Source: Candidatus Desantisiibacteriota bacterium (GTDB lineage: Bacteria > JACRDZ01). Taken from it: a stretch of 16,954 nucleotides of DNA. The notes under the pieces are model-generated. The model was not told the DNA's origin. It worked only from the letters and a program-made list of their open reading frames with translations, and ran no database searches. A program made the translations under genes and the position numbers. Shown here piece after piece: positions 1 through 14,971 of the stretch; positions within the stretch are counted from its first letter, which is position 1; the number at the start of each line of letters is the position of its first letter. The stretch lies in assembly GCA_016209155.1 (NCBI GenBank), contig JACQWU010000129.1, positions 1 through 16,954 on the forward strand, in the 5' to 3' direction.

Positions 1-2901
1 AAAACAATTGATGAGAAGCAGACGCTTGAATTTGCGGTAACCGCAATAGATCCTGATAATGATACTTTGAAGATTACAGCAACAGGATTACCTGCTGGAG
101 CAATCTTCGATACTACTAATACATTTAGCTGGATACCGGAATACAATCAAGCAGGAACTTATCCCGTAACATTCAGCGTAACTGATGGAATGTTAAGCGA
201 TACAGAGACAATAAATATATCAGTTGGTGATGTAAATAGAGCCCCAGTATTGACAGCGATAGGGAATAAGATGATTAAAGAAAAGCAGACACTGGAATTT
301 ACTGTTAATGCAACAGACCCTGATAACGACATCTTAAAAATTACAGCATCAGGTTTACCGGATGAAGCAATATTTGACACAACAAATACATTCAAATGGA
401 TACCGGAATATAATCAATCAGGTATATATACGATAATTTTTAATGTATCAGATGGAATTTTAAATAATACAGAAATAGTAAATATAATTGTGAATAATAC
501 AAATCGTGCTCCAATATTATCGGAAATAAGTTCAAAAACAATAAAAGAAAATCAATTACTGGAATTTACTATAAATGCAGTTGATACAGATGGAGATAAC
601 CTAAAATTTACAGCAGGAGGGTTGCCGGATGGGGCAATATTTGACAGCACAAATACATTTAGATGGAAACCGGGATTTAATCAATCAGGTATATATTACA
701 TTGATTTTATTGTCAATGACGGCAATCTAAGTGATAATAAAATAGTAAATCTAACCGTGGATAATGTTAATCGTCCACCTGTATTATCTTCAATAAGTGA
801 TAAGGTTTTGGAAGCTAATAATTTATTTACTTTTACTGTGAGTGCGTATGATCCCGATATGGACAATTTACAATTTACAGTATCTGGATTACCTGAAGGA
901 GCTGTATTTGACAGTGCAAATATATTTATGTGGATACCGGAATACATACAATCAGGGATTCATACAATTAGCTTTACTGTTTCGGACGAAATATTAAGTG
1001 ATACAAAAACTATGAATATAACAGTAGAAAAAGTAAATCGTGTACCTGTTTTAGCAGTAATAGGGAATAAAGTTATAGATGAAAAACAGATGTTGGAGTT
1101 TACTGTGAATGCAACGGATCCTGATGGTGACAAAACAATGATTATTGGCAATAGATTACCTGACGGGGCTATATTCGATACAACAAATACATTTAGATGG
1201 GTTCCTGAATATACCCAGTCCGGGACATATCCTGTTTCATTTAATGCAACAGATGGAATTTTAAGCAATACAGAAACTATAAATATAACTGTGAATAATG
1301 TAAACCGTACACCTGTTTTAACAGAAATAGGGGATAAAACGATAGATGAAGGAACTTTATTGGAATTTATAGTGAATGCGACAGATCCTGATAATGATAT
1401 TTTGAAAATTACAGTATCAGGATTACCAGATAAAGCTGTGTTTGATACAACAAACACATTCAAATGGATTCCTGATTATAATCAGTCAGGGATATATACT
1501 TTGATTTTTAATGTATCAGATGGAATTTTAAATAATACAAAAATAGTAAATATGATTGTAAATAATACAAACCGTGCACCAGTATTAGAAGTGATAGGAG
1601 ATAAAATAATAAACGAAAATCAAATGCTTGAATTTACTGTAACGGCAATAGATCCGGATGGAGATAATTTAAAATTTACAGTAGGAGGACTTCCAGATGG
1701 AGCTATTTTTGATAGTACAAATACATTCAAATGGTTACCAGTATATAATCAAGCAGGAATATATATAGTAACGTTTATTGTAACAGATGGTGTTTTGATT
1801 GATACTAAGAATGTAAAAATAACAGTAAAAAGTATAAATCGTACACCTACATTATCAGCTATTGGAGATAAAATAATAGATGAAGGGCAGATGTTAACAT
1901 TCGCTGCAAAAGCAGCAGATCCTGATGGAGATAACCTGGTGGTTACTGCAACAGGACTTCCTGATGGTGCAACATATGATAGTTCCAATATATTTAAATG
2001 GATACCTGGATATAATCAATCAGGAAATTATTCAGTAATGTTTATTGCAACAGATGGCATATTGAGTGATACAAAAATTGTAAATATAATAGTAAATGAT
2101 ATAAACCGTGCTCCAGTATTATCTAAAATAGGAGATAAAATAGCATTAGAAGGTCAGATATTGGAATTTGCTTTGGATGCAGTGGATAGCGATGGTGATA
2201 CTCTTACATTTACAGCATTAGGGCTTCCTGTCGGAGCGGTGATTGATAATAAAAAATTTAAATGGGAACTCGGATATACACATTTAGATAAATATTCTAT
2301 AACTTTTATTGTATCAGATAAGAAACTTAGTGATTCAGAGACAATCAATATCATAGTAAAACATATAAATCGTGCACCGGTATTTTCAGATATAGGAAAT
2401 AAAACAGTAAATGAAAATCAAATGCTTGAGTTTAAAATAAATGCAATAGATCCTGATGGAGATTCTATAAAATTTACAGCAATAGGAATTCCTGAAGGAG
2501 TGGTATTTGACAGTGTAAATATATTCAAATGGATACCCGGATATACCCAGGCAGGAATATATTCAGTAACATTTATTGGAACAGATGGTAAATTGAGTAT
2601 CACAAAAAATATAGAAGTAACTGTGGTGGACGTAAATCGTGCACCTGTTTTATCTGCTATAGGTGATAAGACTATAGATGAAGGAAAGATGCTTAAATTC
2701 AGGTTAAGTGCAAATGATCAAGATAGAGATTCCTTGAGTTTTAGAGCTATAGGATTACCTCTGGGAGCTTCATTAGATAGTACAAATACATTCAAATGGA
2801 TCCCGGATTATAACCAGTCAGGTATATATTCAGTAAAATTTATAGTAACCGATGGGCTTTTAACTGCTTCTGAAATAATAAAAATCAATGTTAATAACGT
2901 A
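1..2901 (+). repeat. Tandem 267-bp repeat array (11 Ig-like units)
   Basis: Unit boundaries at the Asn-Arg codons fall at 235, 502, 769, 1036, 1303, 1570, 1837, 2104, 2368 and 2635. The period is exactly 267 bp, except one unit of 264 bp (2104-2367), which has lost a residue in its F-D-x-x-N turn and the Pro of W-x-P. Ten units are complete and one (1-234) is cut by the window edge. Units have diverged at codon level, but neighbouring copies remain alignable throughout. Confidence 0.9.
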
Positions 2902-3189
2902 TCGGATATACCGGCAGCGCCGGATAATCTCACTGCAAAATATAATATAGGAATAGTCATGCTTTCATGGCATGATAATTCCAGAAATGAGACAGGATTT
3001 AAACTTGAACGTTATCATAATGGAAAATGGAAGCAGATAGCACTAATTAATCCGGATATTAAATCATTTATAGATATTAAAGGCAGAAGAGGTTTTTATT
3101 ACAGAGTCAGGGCATATAATGATATAGGTAATTCAGCTTATTCTAATATATACAAAGCTGTTGCAAAGAAGCTGGAAAAATCTAAATAA
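1..3189 (+). CDS. Large He_PIG/cadherin-like Ig-repeat surface protein, 3' part
   Basis: The reading frame is open from base 1, so the gene starts outside the window; 1062 residues are visible. It consists of tandem 89-residue Ig-like units, each starting N-R-x-P-V-L, with an acidic D-x-D-x-D site, a G-L-P-x-G-A-x-F-D turn, a W-x-P and a final T/S-D-G-x-L strand. This is the pattern of Pfam He_PIG ('putative Ig') and cadherin-like calcium-binding repeats. After the last unit (about base 2902) comes one fibronectin III-like domain, with P-A-A-P-D-N-L at its start and Y-Y-R-V-R-A-Y-N near its end, then a short Lys-rich tail. No LPXTG motif, T9SS-type sorting domain or transmembrane helix is visible at the C terminus. 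Such proteins are normally secreted or surface-exposed adhesins or glycan-binding stalks; that role is inferred here. The gene converges with the radical SAM gene, 10 bp away. Family assignment is firm, function is not. Confidence 0.85.
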   Translation, partial: KTIDEKQTLEFAVTAIDPDNDTLKITATGLPAGAIFDTTNTFSWIPEYNQAGTYPVTFSVTDGMLSDTETINISVGDVNRAPVLTAIGNKMIKEKQTLEFTVNATDPDNDILKITASGLPDEAIFDTTNTFKWIPEYNQSGIYTIIFNVSDGILNNTEIVNIIVNNTNRAPILSEISSKTIKENQLLEFTINAVDTDGDNLKFTAGGLPDGAIFDSTNTFRWKPGFNQSGIYYIDFIVNDGNLSDNKIVNLTVDNVNRPPVLSSISDKVLEANNLFTFTVSAYDPDMDNLQFTVSGLPEGAVFDSANIFMWIPEYIQSGIHTISFTVSDEILSDTKTMNITVEKVNRVPVLAVIGNKVIDEKQMLEFTVNATDPDGDKTMIIGNRLPDGAIFDTTNTFRWVPEYTQSGTYPVSFNATDGILSNTETINITVNNVNRTPVLTEIGDKTIDEGTLLEFIVNATDPDNDILKITVSGLPDKAVFDTTNTFKWIPDYNQSGIYTLIFNVSDGILNNTKIVNMIVNNTNRAPVLEVIGDKIINENQMLEFTVTAIDPDGDNLKFTVGGLPDGAIFDSTNTFKWLPVYNQAGIYIVTFIVTDGVLIDTKNVKITVKSINRTPTLSAIGDKIIDEGQMLTFAAKAADPDGDNLVVTATGLPDGATYDSSNIFKWIPGYNQSGNYSVMFIATDGILSDTKIVNIIVNDINRAPVLSKIGDKIALEGQILEFALDAVDSDGDTLTFTALGLPVGAVIDNKKFKWELGYTHLDKYSITFIVSDKKLSDSETINIIVKHINRAPVFSDIGNKTVNENQMLEFKINAIDPDGDSIKFTAIGIPEGVVFDSVNIFKWIPGYTQAGIYSVTFIGTDGKLSITKNIEVTVVDVNRAPVLSAIGDKTIDEGKMLKFRLSANDQDRDSLSFRAIGLPLGASLDSTNTFKWIPDYNQSGIYSVKFIVTDGLLTASEIIKINVNNVSDIPAAPDNLTAKYNIGIVMLSWHDNSRNETGFKLERYHNGKWKQIALINPDIKSFIDIKGRRGFYYRVRAYNDIGNSAYSNIYKAVAKKLEKSK

Positions 3190-3209
3190 ATAATTTTATT
3201 TATTTAGAT
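3180..3209. terminator. Convergent terminator hairpin spanning both stop codons
   Basis: A perfect 12-bp inverted repeat (arms 3180-3191 and 3198-3209) surrounds the six-base loop AATTTT, which could add two more A-T pairs. Both convergent genes end inside it. On the - strand the stem is followed at once by TTTTT, the usual layout of an intrinsic terminator for the radical SAM gene. On the + strand the T tract is missing, so termination of the repeat protein is less certain. Confidence 0.55.
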
Positions 3210-4972
3210 CTGGAGAAAAAAAGATTAAAAAAATACCTGGTTCTGCTAAAGAAAATATGAATATCAGTTAGAAAGTATTGTATTCTTTTTGGAATTCTGA
3301 TACCTTTAATAATAAACGGTCTGTCAAGTTCTTTTTTATCGCAGATAATATTTTCATTAAGTTTATCAATTATCGGTTTTAATTTATCAAATTCTTTTTG
3401 TCTCTCGGATTCAGGAAGTTTTTTAATTTCATCCAGACGTTCAATAATTTTAATTGACTGCTGAATAGCATTATGTATTTCAGCTGCTCTTTTTTCCGTC
3501 AACTGACCATACTTAAGTTTTAATTGATTAAGCTGTTCTCCAGCACGGTATGTGCTTTTAACTATTTCTTCTCTGGTCATCCAGTTGGTTTCGTAATTCA
3601 TCATATCTTTCCAGCTTGGGTTGAGAAGCGCAGTTCTGTGTTCTTCTAAAGTTTTGTAAAATATTTTGTATCCTGATTCCTCCGGATGTTCAAAAGCAGG
3701 ACTTCCCGGATCGATGTAAGGTACAAGAGGAGATATATAAAGGAAAAGTTTATCGGAATGTTCTTTGAATTTTCCCATAAGATATTCGCAATATTTAATA
3801 GTGTCATCTACTGACTGCATATTTTGATGTGGTAATCCGATTGTAAAGAATATATCAACTTTGGTATAGTTAAATTCCAGGCAATCACTTATCATTCTTT
3901 CTAATTTTTCATTTGAATACGGTCGTCCATATGCTAAGCGTATTTTTTCATCATGAGAATCAGGGGATATCTCTACACTTACATTAGGTACTGATTCTGA
4001 TACTTCTTTCAAAAAATCTCGCGGTGGCGGAGTGAAAAATTCAAGTATTAATTGATTTTTGAGTTTTGTTTCTTTGAGAAGTTCCAGCAATCGGCTTGCA
4101 TATTTTTTCCCCGGCTGATAAGGATCTCCGATAATAAAAATAGGTCCCTTAATGATACTGGCAGAAGTTTTAATTGTTTTAATTATGGACTCAGGGGAAA
4201 AAAATACAGGATGTTCTCTTTTGCACACCATTTCAAAAGCATGTGCGCCGCCCCCGCATGTTTTGCAGTTATAGATACAACCGTTAGCTGTCATAATTGC
4301 CGTTATTGGATAAGATGCCCAATATCGAAAAGGCATATGTCCTGAAATATCCCTGTATTTAAAAACCGATTTAATTATGTATTTATAATTTACCGAGATT
4401 TCATGTAGTTTATTCGGAATATGTGTAATTTTATTTACTGTTACCTTGCTGTCTTTTTTCCATGTTAAATTTGGAACAGAATAAAGATCCCCGTCATTTT
4501 TAAGTGCATCCATTAACATTAACATGGGAATTTCCGTTGAATCTCCGCGAATAACAAAATCAACCTGGGGATACTGAATGAGTTCTTCATGAAAATAGGA
4601 AGAGGATAATCCTCCGAAAACAACAGGTTTGTCAGGATGATATTTTTTTACTATTTTTGCAAGCTCCAGACTGCCATGAGCATGTGGAAGCCAATGCAGA
4701 TCAATTCCATAGAGAAGCTTTACTTTTTGTTTTTTAATAAAATGTTCAGGATTATAGTCCGAATTTAAAAGCATTTTTAAAGCTACATTTTTTATACGGC
4801 AATGGTAACCGTGTTCATCAAGATATGCGGCAATTCGTGTCATTCCAACAGGATACATTTCAAAAATAGGAGTGGATGGGATGACATCACTCATCGGACC
4901 AAAAAGGAGAGATAGCTTTCTGAAATCATAAACACTTGGTGCATGAAGTAATAATAAATCAAGATCTCGCAT
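3200..4972 (-). CDS. B12-binding/radical SAM protein, Ta0216-like (copy 1)
   Basis: This 590-residue protein has a cobalamin-binding-type N-terminal domain: G-I-D-L-H-W-L-x-H-A-H-G around residue 90, V-V-F-G-G near 120, and D-F-V-I-R-G-D near 140. A radical SAM domain follows with the [4Fe-4S] motif C-x3-C-x2-C at Cys232, Cys236 and Cys239, next to Gly-Gly-Gly. The opening L-L-L-H-A-P-S-V-Y-D-F-R-K and F-E-M-Y-P signatures match, from memory, the uncharacterised family named after Thermoplasma Ta0216. The C-terminal third is charged, helical and Lys/Glu-rich. The ATG at 4972 is chosen because AGAAAGG lies 8 bases upstream; a longer frame reaching 5053 reads through the heptamer repeat and has no good ribosome site. 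It is the last gene of the leftward cluster and a diverged paralogue of the gene upstream. Substrate unknown: such enzymes methylate unactivated carbons or rearrange skeletons. Confidence 0.85.
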   Translation of the reverse strand: MRDLDLLLLHAPSVYDFRKLSLLFGPMSDVIPSTPIFEMYPVGMTRIAAYLDEHGYHCRIKNVALKMLLNSDYNPEHFIKKQKVKLLYGIDLHWLPHAHGSLELAKIVKKYHPDKPVVFGGLSSSYFHEELIQYPQVDFVIRGDSTEIPMLMLMDALKNDGDLYSVPNLTWKKDSKVTVNKITHIPNKLHEISVNYKYIIKSVFKYRDISGHMPFRYWASYPITAIMTANGCIYNCKTCGGGAHAFEMVCKREHPVFFSPESIIKTIKTSASIIKGPIFIIGDPYQPGKKYASRLLELLKETKLKNQLILEFFTPPPRDFLKEVSESVPNVSVEISPDSHDEKIRLAYGRPYSNEKLERMISDCLEFNYTKVDIFFTIGLPHQNMQSVDDTIKYCEYLMGKFKEHSDKLFLYISPLVPYIDPGSPAFEHPEESGYKIFYKTLEEHRTALLNPSWKDMMNYETNWMTREEIVKSTYRAGEQLNQLKLKYGQLTEKRAAEIHNAIQQSIKIIERLDEIKKLPESERQKEFDKLKPIIDKLNENIICDKKELDRPFIIKGIRIPKRIQYFLTDIHIFFSRTRYFFNLFFSRSK

Positions 4973-5003
4973 TATTTTACCTTTCTTAAATACAAACCTA
5001 CTA

Positions 5004-5040
5004 TTCAGGCCTTTAGGCTGAAGGCTGAAGGCTGAAGGAA
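5004..5040. repeat. GGCTGAA heptamer tandem repeat
   Basis: Three perfect head-to-tail copies of GGCTGAA lie at 5016-5036, preceded by a partly related TTCAGGCCTTTA segment. It lies in the 115-bp gap between the two radical SAM genes, 30-45 bases before the start of the downstream copy. It is more G+C-rich than its surroundings. It resembles a simple intergenic repeat; no protein-coding role is likely. Confidence 0.55.
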
Positions 5041-5087
5041 TAGTTATATACAAATAAATATAAAGCTTAAAAAGAATTTTGTCAATG

Positions 5088-6842
5088 CTATCCCATCATT
5101 TTATCAATTAATGACCAGAAGAAGAAAAAAATTCTTCTAACAAATTTAGGAGCTTTTATTCCAAAGAACATAACAGCCCATTCAAGATCTTTCATATTGC
5201 AAATTGTTGAAACGCTGAATATGTCCATATTTTGTTTTAAGTCTTTTAAAAGGTCATTTCGGACGGATTCATTTTTGTTTTCAAGTATTTTATCTATATA
5301 ACGGCATAGATCTCGTGCCTGAATTATTCTTTTTTCCTGAGAAATGGCTTTTTTTTGTTCGATTATCCCATGTGCCATTTTTACCCTGTTCAATTCAATT
5401 GCAGCTTCATAGGAGCTTTCAACTATATCGTCCCTGGTCATCCATTTGGTTTCATAATTAAGTATATATTTCCAACTGGGTTGAAGTAATGCCATCCGGT
5501 GCTGTTCCAGAGTTTTGTAAAAAAGCTTGTAACCGTATTTTTCAGGATCTTCAAACACAGTTGAGCCGGGATCAAGAAAAGGTGCCATTGGTGCAATATA
5601 AACAGCAACTTTTTTAGAATAAGCATATTTACCTAAAATATAGTCGCAATATTTTATTGTGTCTCTTACAGATTGTCTTGTTTGTTCCGGAAGTCCTATC
5701 ATAAAAAAAAGATCAATACGTCCAACCCCAAGTTTAATAGATGTTTCTATCATCTCCTCAGTTTGTTTATTTGTAAAATTCCTGCCGAATAAACTGCGAA
5801 CCCTTTCATCATGTGATTCAGGGGAAAGAATAAGATTGAAGCTGGGGATTGCCTTTGCCATATGTTCTAACTCATCTCTTGCCGGAGGAGCAGATAATTC
5901 AAAAATGATCTGATTAGAAACATTAAGCCGTTCAAATTCATCGAAAAGATCCGAACTGTATTTTTTTCCGTTTAGGAACACATCACCGATCAAAAGTAAA
6001 GGCCCATTAATAAATCTGGACAAAATTTTTATTTCTTTTCCGATATCTTCCGGACTTCTATAAACAGTTTTTTTACGACTGCAGTGATTTTGATAGAATT
6101 GATTTGATCCGCCGCATACATTACATCTATAATTGCACCCGCGGCTCATAACAAGCGCCGTAACAGGATAATCCACCCAGGATGCGAACGGCAGGTATCC
6201 TGAAAAATCCAGATCCTTAATTGCTGATAAAAATATGTTTTTATAATCAACATAAATACCATCTAGAGAATCGGGAATAAATGTAAAAGGATTATAAATT
6301 ACTTCTCCTTGATCATTTTTCCAGCAGAGATTTTCAATTTTATCTAATGCTGTCCCGTTTTTTAATGCAATCAGCAGTTGTTCTAATAAAAGTTCAGTTG
6401 AGTCACCACGAATGCAATAATCAATAAATGGATATTCCATTAATTCTTTATTAAAATAAGTAGCAGAAATACCTCCAAAGATAACAGCAGAATCAGGATG
6501 AAGTTTTTTTACTAATTTAGCTACTTCAACACTACCATGTGCATGGCATAACCAGTGAAGATCTATCCCGAATGCCCGTGCATTTATTTTTTTTAAAAAT
6601 TTTTCAGGATCAAATTCAGGATTTAAAAGCATTTTAACCGCAAGATTAAGTATTCTGACACGGAAGCCTTTGTTTTTAAGATAACGGGAAATAGTAGCAA
6701 AGCCAATCGGGTACATTTCAAAAACAGAAGAAGAAGGGACTACATCACTTATAGGACCATACATGATAGAAGTTTTTCTAAAATCATATACTGATGGTGC
6801 ATGTAAAAGAACAAGATCATATTTATAACTTTTAAAATCCAT
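5088..6842 (-). CDS. B12-binding/radical SAM protein, Ta0216-like (copy 2)
   Basis: This 584-residue protein is a paralogue of the next gene downstream and shares its whole plan: L-V-L-L-H-A-P-S-V-Y-D-F-R-K at the start, G-I-D-L-H-W-L-C-H-A-H-G near residue 93, G-G-I-S-A and I-R-G-D-S-T-E in the B12-type fold, and the radical SAM cysteines at 236, 240 and 243 (C-N-Y-R-C-N-V-C). Further matched blocks are F-F-M-I-G-L-P, D-T-I-K-Y-C, D-P-G-S, Y-K-L-F-Y-K-T-L-E-Q-H-R and N-Y-E-T-K-W-M-T-R. The ATG at 6842 has GGAG five bases upstream. The canonical cobalamin D-x-H-x-x-G motif is only approximated, as is usual in B12-dependent radical SAM enzymes, so base-off binding without a His ligand is possible. 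Reaction and substrate cannot be read from the sequence. The glycosyltransferase and rfbC remnant upstream suggest surface-glycan or lipid work; this is inference. Confidence 0.85.
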   Translation of the reverse strand: MDFKSYKYDLVLLHAPSVYDFRKTSIMYGPISDVVPSSSVFEMYPIGFATISRYLKNKGFRVRILNLAVKMLLNPEFDPEKFLKKINARAFGIDLHWLCHAHGSVEVAKLVKKLHPDSAVIFGGISATYFNKELMEYPFIDYCIRGDSTELLLEQLLIALKNGTALDKIENLCWKNDQGEVIYNPFTFIPDSLDGIYVDYKNIFLSAIKDLDFSGYLPFASWVDYPVTALVMSRGCNYRCNVCGGSNQFYQNHCSRKKTVYRSPEDIGKEIKILSRFINGPLLLIGDVFLNGKKYSSDLFDEFERLNVSNQIIFELSAPPARDELEHMAKAIPSFNLILSPESHDERVRSLFGRNFTNKQTEEMIETSIKLGVGRIDLFFMIGLPEQTRQSVRDTIKYCDYILGKYAYSKKVAVYIAPMAPFLDPGSTVFEDPEKYGYKLFYKTLEQHRMALLQPSWKYILNYETKWMTRDDIVESSYEAAIELNRVKMAHGIIEQKKAISQEKRIIQARDLCRYIDKILENKNESVRNDLLKDLKQNMDIFSVSTICNMKDLEWAVMFFGIKAPKFVRRIFFFFWSLIDKMMG

Positions 6843-11680: not shown

Positions 11681-11733
11681 AAAGAGACAGCGGCAGTTAG
11701 AACCTTATATAAAAATATGTAATGGAGGATCTT

Positions 11734-12681
11734 GTGAAGGAAAATAAAATTAATAAAAAAATACACAATGTCGTAGACGAATTTGAGCTATTTAAGCAAA
11801 ATACAATAGAAATTTTACCTGAAAATGAGCTTAAAATAAAAATAGAAAAATCCCGTTTAACCAATACACCGCTAAGAATTAAATTTGGTGCTGATCCAAC
11901 AACATGTAATATCCATCTGGGACATACGGTTATTCTTCGTAAACTAAGACAACTGCAAAATATGGGGCATACGATAGTATTTATTATAGGCGATTTTACA
12001 GCAATGATTGGAGACCCATCAGGGAGAAGTGAAACACGGAAAAGGCTTTCAAAAGAAGAAGTTCTTCATAATGCTGAAACTTACCAAAGACAGATATCAA
12101 GAATTCTTAATATTAAGAAAGTTGAATTACTGTATAATGGTGATTGGCTTCAGGAAATGCCTTTAAGTGAATTAATCGATCTTTCCTCGAGGTATACAGT
12201 AGCCCGAATTTTAGAAAGAGCTGATTTTAAAGATCGTTATGAAAAGCAAAAAGATATCAGTGTTGTGGAATTTCTTTATCCTTTATTCCAGGGTTACGAT
12301 TCAGTAATAACAAGAAGCGATCTCGAAATTGGCGGAAATGATCAGAAATTTAATCTTTTAGTTGGAAGGGCTCTGCAAAAAAGTTATGGACAGGAAATGC
12401 AGGCTATACTGACTATGCCCCTTCTCGTTGGTACTGATGGTGTTCAAAAAATGAGTAAAAGTTATGGTAATTATATAGGAATAGACGAAGCACCGTCTGA
12501 AATATTCGGTAAAGTGACGTCAATTTCGGATGATTTAATGCTGGAATATTATCAACTACTTACAGATATAACGAAGGAGGAATTAAACTTAATTGCTTCA
12601 GGGATTAAAAATGAAGAGACTCATCCGTCGAAAAAATTTTTAAACATAAAGAAATACCGGAAATGGAACTTGAAGAAATAA
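11734..12681 (+). CDS. tyrS: Tyrosyl-tRNA synthetase, catalytic part of a broken gene
   Basis: The class I catalytic domain is complete: F-G-A-D-P-T, H-L-G-H (the HIGH motif, residues 61-64), I-G-D-F-T-A-M-I-G-D-P-S-G-R-S, G-G-N-D-Q-K-F-N-L-L-V-G-R and K-M-S-K-S (239-243). The sequence is of the subtype with a C-terminal S4 domain. The GTG at 11734 is preferred: GGAGG sits five bases before it, whereas the in-frame ATG at 11722 has no ribosome site and is itself part of that signal. After H-P-S (around 12630) the frame leaves the family alignment and ends in an unrelated tail of about 16 residues. The S4 domain continues in the -1 frame. The linker normally found there (about 27 residues, remembered from relatives) is absent, so this is an out-of-frame deletion, not just a single-base slip. 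Without the S4 domain, tRNA binding would be impaired. Confidence 0.85.
   Translation: MKENKINKKIHNVVDEFELFKQNTIEILPENELKIKIEKSRLTNTPLRIKFGADPTTCNIHLGHTVILRKLRQLQNMGHTIVFIIGDFTAMIGDPSGRSETRKRLSKEEVLHNAETYQRQISRILNIKKVELLYNGDWLQEMPLSELIDLSSRYTVARILERADFKDRYEKQKDISVVEFLYPLFQGYDSVITRSDLEIGGNDQKFNLLVGRALQKSYGQEMQAILTMPLLVGTDGVQKMSKSYGNYIGIDEAPSEIFGKVTSISDDLMLEYYQLLTDITKEELNLIASGIKNEETHPSKKFLNIKKYRKWNLKK
12627..12645 (+). other. tyrS deletion junction with slippery-like heptamer
   Basis: The two tyrS frames meet at TCGAAAAAATTTTTAAAC. The upstream frame reads H-P-S-K-K-F-L-N; the -1 frame reads V-E-K-I-F-K-H-K-E-I-P-E, the normal approach to the S4 domain. TTTAAAC (12639-12645) lies in the upstream frame as T TTA AAC, so a -1 slip there would join the frames exactly. 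No clear stimulatory hairpin follows. Confidence 0.6.
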
Positions 12682-12896
12682 ATTGGAATGAAGAAGATAT
12701 CAATCTGGCGAAACTTTTGAGAACAGTAGATCTGGTTGACAGCGCCACAGAAGCCAGGCGTTTAATCACACAGGGAGCTATATCTATAAATGAGGAACGC
12801 ATTAATGATATAAACAGTTCTCTTGATTTCTCAAAAGAATATATTATTAAAGTCGGAAAAAGGAAATTTAAAAAAATTAAAATAAATAAAAAATAA
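12663..12896 (+). CDS. tyrS: Tyrosyl-tRNA synthetase S4 domain, out-of-frame 3' part
   Basis: This 77-residue reading frame starts at an ATG that is an ordinary internal Met in relatives (I-P-E-M-E-L-E-E). It contains the S4 RNA-binding motif L-V-D-S-A-T-E-A-R-R-L-I-T-Q-G-A-I-S-I-N and a Lys-rich end, R-K-F-K-K-I-K-I. It overlaps the catalytic frame by 19 bases in the -1 frame. GGAA lies only a few bases before the ATG, so independent translation is not convincing. In a whole synthetase this domain grips the tRNA anticodon arm. On its own it is most simply the stranded tail of tyrS. Confidence 0.75.
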   Translation: MELEEINWNEEDINLAKLLRTVDLVDSATEARRLITQGAISINEERINDINSSLDFSKEYIIKVGKRKFKKIKINKK

Positions 12897-13155: not shown

Positions 13156-13842
13156 ATGGATCTCAATGCATTGCGTAATATAAGCTATGGGATGTATATT
13201 ATTTCTTCTAATAAGGGAAGTCAATTTAATGCTCAAATTGCAAATACTGTATTTCAGATAACCAATGAACCGATAATAATAGCAATAAGTATAAATAAAA
13301 AAAATTTTACCCATGAGTATATAGAATCAAGCCAACGATTTTCCATATCAATTCTTGAAGAAAATACACCGCTTGATTTTATTGGTAAATTTGGTTTTAA
13401 ATCAGGCAGAACAGAAAATAAATTTATAAATATTAAATCAAAAGTACTTTCCTCGGGATGTCCGGTAGTCCTTGATTTTTCTCTTGCATATCTTGAAGCA
13501 AAAGTAGTAAATAAATTTGACTGCTCAAGTCATACGATTTTTCTTGGAGAAATTACAGAATCTGAGATATCTAAAAGCGGAAAAGTCATGACATATGCCT
13601 ATTATCATCAGATTAAGGGAGGAACAACACCAAAAACAGCTCCTACATTTATGAAAAATGAAACGAAAGGAAGTGTATCTATGCAGAAATATAAATGTAA
13701 AATTTGCGGTTATATTTATGACCCAAAAATTGGGGATCCTGATAACGGAATAAAGGCAGATACTCTCTTTGAAGATATTCCCAATACATGGGTATGTCCT
13801 GTATGCGGTGCAGATAAAAGTCAGTTTGAAAAGGAGGAATAG
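13156..13842 (+). CDS. hrb: Flavin reductase-rubredoxin fusion (high-molecular-weight rubredoxin)
   Basis: This 228-residue protein fuses an FMN-binding flavin-reductase-like domain (about 1-155; [10 protein letters not shown] near 25-34) to a rubredoxin (about 176-225). Rubredoxin iron ligands are Cys181/Cys184 ([10 protein letters not shown]) and Cys214/Cys217 (W-V-C-P-V-C-G). This is the plan of Moorella Hrb, which passes electrons from NADH to the flavodiiron protein FprA to reduce NO or oxygen. No FprA gene is in the window, so the partner may be the rubrerythrin next door or lie elsewhere. The ATG has AAGGA eight bases upstream. It is first gene of a tight trio, with two bases before rubrerythrin. 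Confidence 0.88.
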
Positions 13843-13844
13843 AT

Positions 13845-14417
13845 ATGAACATTAAAGGAACACAAACAGAAAAAAATTTATTAGCATCTTTTGCTGGAGA
13901 GTCTCAGGCAAGGAACAGATATACATATTTTGCCAGTGCGGCTAAAAAAGAAGGGTATGAACAAATATGTGCTATTTTTCTTGAAACTGCCGATAATGAA
14001 AAAGAACATGCTAAAAAATTTTTTAAATTTTTAGAGGGGGGAGAATTAGAAATTACTGCTACTTTCCCTGCGGGGGTGATTGGAAATACTGCGGCAAATC
14101 TTAAAGCCGCAGCTGACGGTGAGAATTTAGAATGGACAGTTCTTTATAAAGAAGCCGAGAAAATAGCGCGTAAAGAAGGTTTTGATAAAATTGCTGATGT
14201 TTTTAAAGAAATAAGTAAAGTCGAAAGCCATCATGAAGCTCGATACCGGAAATTGCTTAAAAATATTCAAGATGGTAAGGTTTTCAAAAAGGATACTATT
14301 GTTAAATGGAAATGCCGCAATTGCGGTTATATTAATGAGGGAATGGAAGCACCGGAAGAATGTCCTGCATGCGCACATCCTAAAGATTATTATGAGATTT
14401 TATGTGAAAATTATTAG
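13845..14417 (+). CDS. rbr: Rubrerythrin
   Basis: A 190-residue cytoplasmic peroxidase that reduces hydrogen peroxide in anaerobes. The ferritin-like four-helix part carries the diiron ligand pattern: Glu19 (G-E-S-Q-A-R-N-R-Y), E-K-E-H (Glu52/His55), Glu93/Glu96 (G-E-N-L-E-W) and E-S-H-H-E-A-R-Y (Glu127/His130). The C-terminal rubredoxin-like domain binds iron with Cys157/Cys160 and Cys173/Cys176. Length is normal. The ribosome site AAGGAGG lies inside the last codons of the preceding gene, and the start is two bases after its stop, so translation is coupled. Electrons probably come from the Hrb-type protein. Confidence 0.95.
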   Translation: MNIKGTQTEKNLLASFAGESQARNRYTYFASAAKKEGYEQICAIFLETADNEKEHAKKFFKFLEGGELEITATFPAGVIGNTAANLKAAADGENLEWTVLYKEAEKIARKEGFDKIADVFKEISKVESHHEARYRKLLKNIQDGKVFKKDTIVKWKCRNCGYINEGMEAPEECPACAHPKDYYEILCENY

Positions 14418-14494
14418 TTTAAATAATAACTATAAAGGTGAATATATTGATGGGAAGGGCTATAATAGCTTATAAATAAATCATGAGGTGTATT

Positions 14495-14971
14495 ATGGCA
14501 GCTAATTTTGCAGGTAGTGAAATTGTTGAGTTAGGAATTCAGATAGAAAAAAATGGCAGGGATTTTTATAATATTCTTGCAGGAAAAGCAAATAATAAAA
14601 AAATTACTCAAACATTTATTTATCTTGCAAAAGAGGAAGATGGACATATAAAAGTATTTAATGATTTATTAAATTCTGTATCAAAGTATGAGCCTGTTGA
14701 AGCCTATCCTGAAGAATATTTTGCTTATATGCATATTCTGGCGGATGAATATGTATTCATACAAAATAATAAAGGAACTGAATTAGCTCAAAAAATAAAT
14801 ACCATTACAGATGCTATTAAAATGGCAATTGAGTTTGAAAAAGATTCTATCCTTTTTTTTGAAGGTATGAAAAAACTTGTAAATCAAAAAGATCAAAAAA
14901 TAATTGAAGATTTAATAAGTCAGGAGCAAAATCATCTCAGGCAACTTTCCGCAATCAAAAACATAACATGA
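14495..14971 (+). CDS. Ferritin-like diiron protein (rubrerythrin family, no rubredoxin domain)
   Basis: This 158-residue protein is mostly helical, with diiron-type motifs: E-K-N-G-R-D-F-Y-N (first helix), A-K-E-E-D-G-H (second, E-x-x-H type), E-F-E-K-D-S-I-L-F-F-E-G-M (third) and I-S-Q-E-Q-N-H (fourth). It lacks the rubredoxin tail of the preceding gene. Such short proteins are usually annotated 'ferritin family' and act in peroxide or iron handling; the exact reaction is not known. The ATG at 14495 is preferred because GAGG lies six bases upstream. The in-frame ATG at 14483 overlaps that ribosome site and has none of its own. It lies 77 bp after rubrerythrin, same strand, and probably belongs to the same transcript. 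Confidence 0.8.
   Translation: MAANFAGSEIVELGIQIEKNGRDFYNILAGKANNKKITQTFIYLAKEEDGHIKVFNDLLNSVSKYEPVEAYPEEYFAYMHILADEYVFIQNNKGTELAQKINTITDAIKMAIEFEKDSILFFEGMKKLVNQKDQKIIEDLISQEQNHLRQLSAIKNIT

Follow-up and report, generated by a model that had tools for sequence, protein, structure and literature searches.

The tyrosyl-tRNA synthetase gene (tyrS) in the window, a stretch of 16,954 nucleotides that constitutes one entire contig (C345) from a draft genome of 352 contigs and 3.08 Mb with a completeness of 78.8%, is recorded in two reading frames, and 82 bases of family sequence are absent where the frames meet. This gap is very probably a local assembly error, a join made at a short chance overlap. 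The sequence-only reading had stated that tyrS is split by a deletion. As a description of the record this holds; as a statement about the organism it is unsupported, similar losses and join faults being found across the assembly.

The two reading frames of tyrS

The catalytic frame lies on the + strand at 11722-12681 and encodes 319 residues. We used the ATG at 11722 as its start; the GTG at 11734, chosen in the sequence-only reading, is an alternative. A profile search matched this frame to TIGR00234 (tyrS) over positions 5-284 (E 1.8e-86), and Pfam assigned it to tRNA-synt_1b (PF00579, E 5.7e-73). Both the class I W/Y-fold catalytic domain and a KMSKS-type motif (KMSKS) are present. The last ~16 residues, past the HPS motif, are out-of-frame read-through. 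The S4 domain and the rest of the C-terminal part follow on the + strand at 12618-12896 in the -1 frame, which matched TIGR00234 positions 316-405 in the profile search (E 7.2e-13) as well as Pfam SYY_C-terminal and S4 (S4, E 3e-6). This frame is open to a stop at 12896 and carries no additional lesion, and no start codon occurs in it before 12663. A single open frame from the catalytic domain through the S4 domain is absent. The course of the gene as first read, catalytic to H-P-S and then S4 in the -1 frame, is borne out by TIGR00234, Pfam and tblastn with 30 relatives.

Both parts are members of the bacterial TyrRS family (TIGR00234) and stand in the correct order. Compared with bacterial TyrRS (TIGR00234; structures including 6BQY, 6BYQ, 1H3E, and 2TS1), the tyrS of the window lacks 26 residues preceding the S4 part, and its frame is broken. 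The TyrRS core of B. stearothermophilus, residues 1-319 (the 319-residue PDB chains 4TS1 and 1TYA-1TYD), is an N-terminal piece of similar length and, like the catalytic frame of the window, has no S4 domain. That core is a laboratory construct that keeps the linker, whereas the open frame of the window ends in out-of-frame residues.

The missing segment at the junction

The size of the missing segment was determined by alignment with 30 relatives, taken from 29 other genomes and one public contig and 48-62% identical. In tblastn, most alignments to the catalytic frame end at 12627-12633, on the His-Pro of the HPS motif, and homology to the S4 frame begins in most cases between 12618 and 12651. 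From the serine of HPS to the conserved phenylalanine of FEKIF (F-E-x-I/V-F) there are exactly 26 residues in all 30 relatives, a segment absent in the window, where the codons for this serine and this phenylalanine begin at 12628 and 12627. The spacing in the relatives and these codon starts together give 81 + 1 = 82 bases lost, wherever the exact break lies. This equals 27 codons and one base (82 mod 3 = 1), consistent with the observed frame. The earlier estimates, about 27 residues and a loss of roughly 80 bp that is not divisible by three, are correct, as is the frame. Since 30/30 relatives agree, chance is no concern for the missing segment. The segment connects the catalytic and S4 parts, and all relatives keep it. 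No close relative sharing the short linker was found, the nearest genomes compared being of the same phylum only (58-62% identical). The missing 82 bases were found nowhere.

At the junction (12618-12636, + strand) the homologies of the two frames overlap by some 10 bases, around 12618-12633 in tblastn. Such an overlap is expected where a short sequence like tcgaaaaa occurs in both flanks, and the junction sequence, ccgtcgaaaaaattttt, is consistent with a short shared tcgaaaaa. An internal loss at a short repeat had been proposed for this site; the loss is present in the record and the junction agrees with it, the exact repeat being presumed, as the missing flanks cannot be seen.

Similar losses in other genes of the assembly

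We examined a sample of 81 contigs of the same genome (715 kb). The control set comprised 20 contigs per genome from three genomes of the same phylum (826 kb). Conserved genes were located with the proteins of relatives, and breaks were scored by homology on either side. These homology tests replaced a screen for frames without a start codon, which lacked specificity: it counted normal gene boundaries with atypical start codons, and the control genome G001 reached as high a score as G000.

An out-of-frame loss breaks four of the 102 conserved genes in the 715 kb sample. The controls gave one flagged gene among 166, with a 13-base difference only, which is not a deletion. The four broken genes encode PorA of pyruvate synthase (L045, ~3627; 140 bases; NF040682 105, then 158), a CapD-like epimerase (L039, ~9401; 134 bases; PF02719 73, then 126), a histidine kinase (L168, ~2690; 100 bases; Pfam halves), and a large unnamed protein (L162, ~14541; 209 bases). 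At each of these joins the homologies overlap by 2-10 bases. The tyrS gene fell under the threshold of the conserved-gene test and counts as a fifth case, with a homology overlap of the same kind. Profile searches on the two halves confirmed the PorA and CapD-like cases and pointed to internal losses in three more genes, for a Ca2+-ATPase (L049, ~12608; TIGR01522 583, then 647), an exopolyphosphatase (L059, ~1900; TIGR03706 90, then 132), and the methylase HsdM (L076, ~884; HsdM_N, then N6_Mtase only from position 58). In-frame losses were limited to two weak cases in this genome and none in the controls.

Scaffold gaps and unmerged overlaps

Within the first 524 kb sampled, we counted 15 internal N runs of 9-106 bases (~29 per Mb); the controls contain two in 826 kb. 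Four of the 15 runs have identical flanks, of 10, 10, 13, and 18 bases (L079:3509-3522, L075:10391-10412, L039:1769-1874, and L089:1794-1804), which indicates that the contig ends overlap and were left unmerged by the scaffolder. One of these four sits within a gene that, by its sequence alone, resembles acetolactate synthase. Near position 7324 of L035, an unmerged 29-base overlap is present as two tandem copies, which puts the NnrE and NnrD parts of a single gene out of frame with each other. In size, the losses from the broken genes (82-209 bases) coincide in part with the longest N gaps written by the scaffolder. The tyrS lesion itself has neither an N run nor a duplicated flank.

For short-read metagenome assemblies, Chen et al. 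2020 (PMC7111523) describe joins that no reads support, Ns placed between flanks that overlap, and incorrect protein-coding genes as a consequence, and report such local errors for IDBA-UD and CLC assemblies. Errors in that work were judged by reads, and here by a pattern across genes; the portions of it drawn on here do not describe a loss of 80-210 bases in such terms.

An assembly join as the favoured explanation

An assembly cause is strongly favoured because similar losses, N gaps whose flanks are duplicated, and an overlap left unmerged are seen across this assembly and hardly occur in the three same-phylum genomes. Two contig ends with about 80 bases between them in the actual genome would have been fused through a short chance overlap resembling tcgaaaaa, with no Ns inserted; such a join would drop 82 bases from an intact tyrS and shift its frame. 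The pattern suggests an intact tyrS in the organism itself and, as the cause of the gap, a join by the assembler or scaffolder; it is through this pattern, rather than through direct proof, that we link the tyrS lesion to the artefacts. Several further observations were counted for an assembly error: the neighbouring genes, for aspartate kinase, YihA, a rubredoxin-domain protein, and rubrerythrin, are full length, the S4 frame is free of lesions, and the assembly has no other tyrS.

The result is a caution and not a discovery. Several per cent of the sampled conserved genes carry a frame-breaking join, so calls of lost genes, split genes, or apparent pseudogenes that are based on this draft cannot be relied on. 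Its biological interest is low, and it is useful as a quality flag.

Alternative explanations

The gene for tyrosyl-tRNA synthetase is essential, and a truncated TyrRS core from B. stearothermophilus activates tyrosine and does not charge tRNA. If the loss were real, the open frame alone would resemble that core. It is unlikely that slippage or recombination at a short direct repeat inactivated tyrS in a cell or a sub-population and that an unseen second synthetase supplies tyrosylation. A short sequence common to the junction flanks is also what replication slippage leaves, and a second copy could be missed in a genome that is 79% complete and in which three of the 61 contigs of the first sample are wholly N. 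Against this, at least seven other conserved genes in ~0.7 Mb show a like loss, alongside scaffold gaps and unmerged overlaps, and a decaying gene would be expected to bear more lesions, but the S4 frame has none.

Nor was a second tyrS found in the assembly. The search for another tyrosyl-tRNA synthetase returned this locus and a trpS, the sole other member of the fold family, in an assembly that is 79% complete and has some contigs masked. The scan of genome contigs gave one distant relative, the pattern scan of viral contigs gave no match, and the plasmid matches are ordinary distant tyrS genes. Three contigs of 2.5-2.8 kb, L046, L065, and L073 (C55, C150, and C190), are wholly N, and the genome searches are thus not exhaustive. 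The sequence-only reading had left a choice among a second copy, a tolerated defect, and an assembly collapse; the last is strongly favoured, and the first was not found.

A chimera formed before assembly is a very improbable source of the lesion. Single-cell whole-genome amplification or library PCR would have joined two sites via short homology, and the product would have become the consensus where coverage was thin. Amplification chimeras are well established, and amplification from a single cell would be in keeping with a fragmented, incomplete genome that has short-homology deletions at many sites. The N runs with duplicated flanks and the unmerged 29-base copy, however, are scaffolding faults that a chimera does not explain. 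Fainter still is the prospect that a living lineage underwent a genome-wide wave of real deletions of 80-210 bases at short repeats, with tyrS among the genes hit and unseen second copies making the losses tolerable. If such deletions were real, it would be remarkable for a lineage to shed parts of essential genes so often.

That the window encodes a working short-linker TyrRS, with ribosomes slipping -1 at UUUAAAC to give a fused enzyme minus 26 residues, is scarcely conceivable, although the heptamer TTTAAAC does lie at the junction (12639-12645, + strand) in the correct register for -1 frameshifting and a slip there yields HPSKKFLN-HKEIPE. All 26 residues are kept in 30/30 relatives, a like lesion recurs in unrelated genes, and, of the coding stretches of 66 nt in this genome, 25% contain an in-frame XXXYYYZ heptamer by chance and 0.6% contain TTTAAAC; the heptamer at the junction is probably a coincidence. 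Slippage at UUUAAAC would not restore the 26-residue segment. Programmed -1 frameshifting was rejected, the arrangement not being conserved: each of the 30 relatives encodes the linker in a single frame.

Other genes in the window

The start of the window (1-3189, + strand) holds the end of a large surface-type protein with at least 10 Ig/cadherin-like repeats, which runs off the contig. Two adjoining paralogous genes on the - strand (3200-5053 and 5088-6842) are both strong members of TIGR04190 (B12-binding/radical SAM). At 13156-14971 on the + strand, consecutive genes encode a flavin reductase-rubredoxin fusion, a rubrerythrin, and a second rubrerythrin-like protein, likely an oxygen-stress cluster of an anaerobe.
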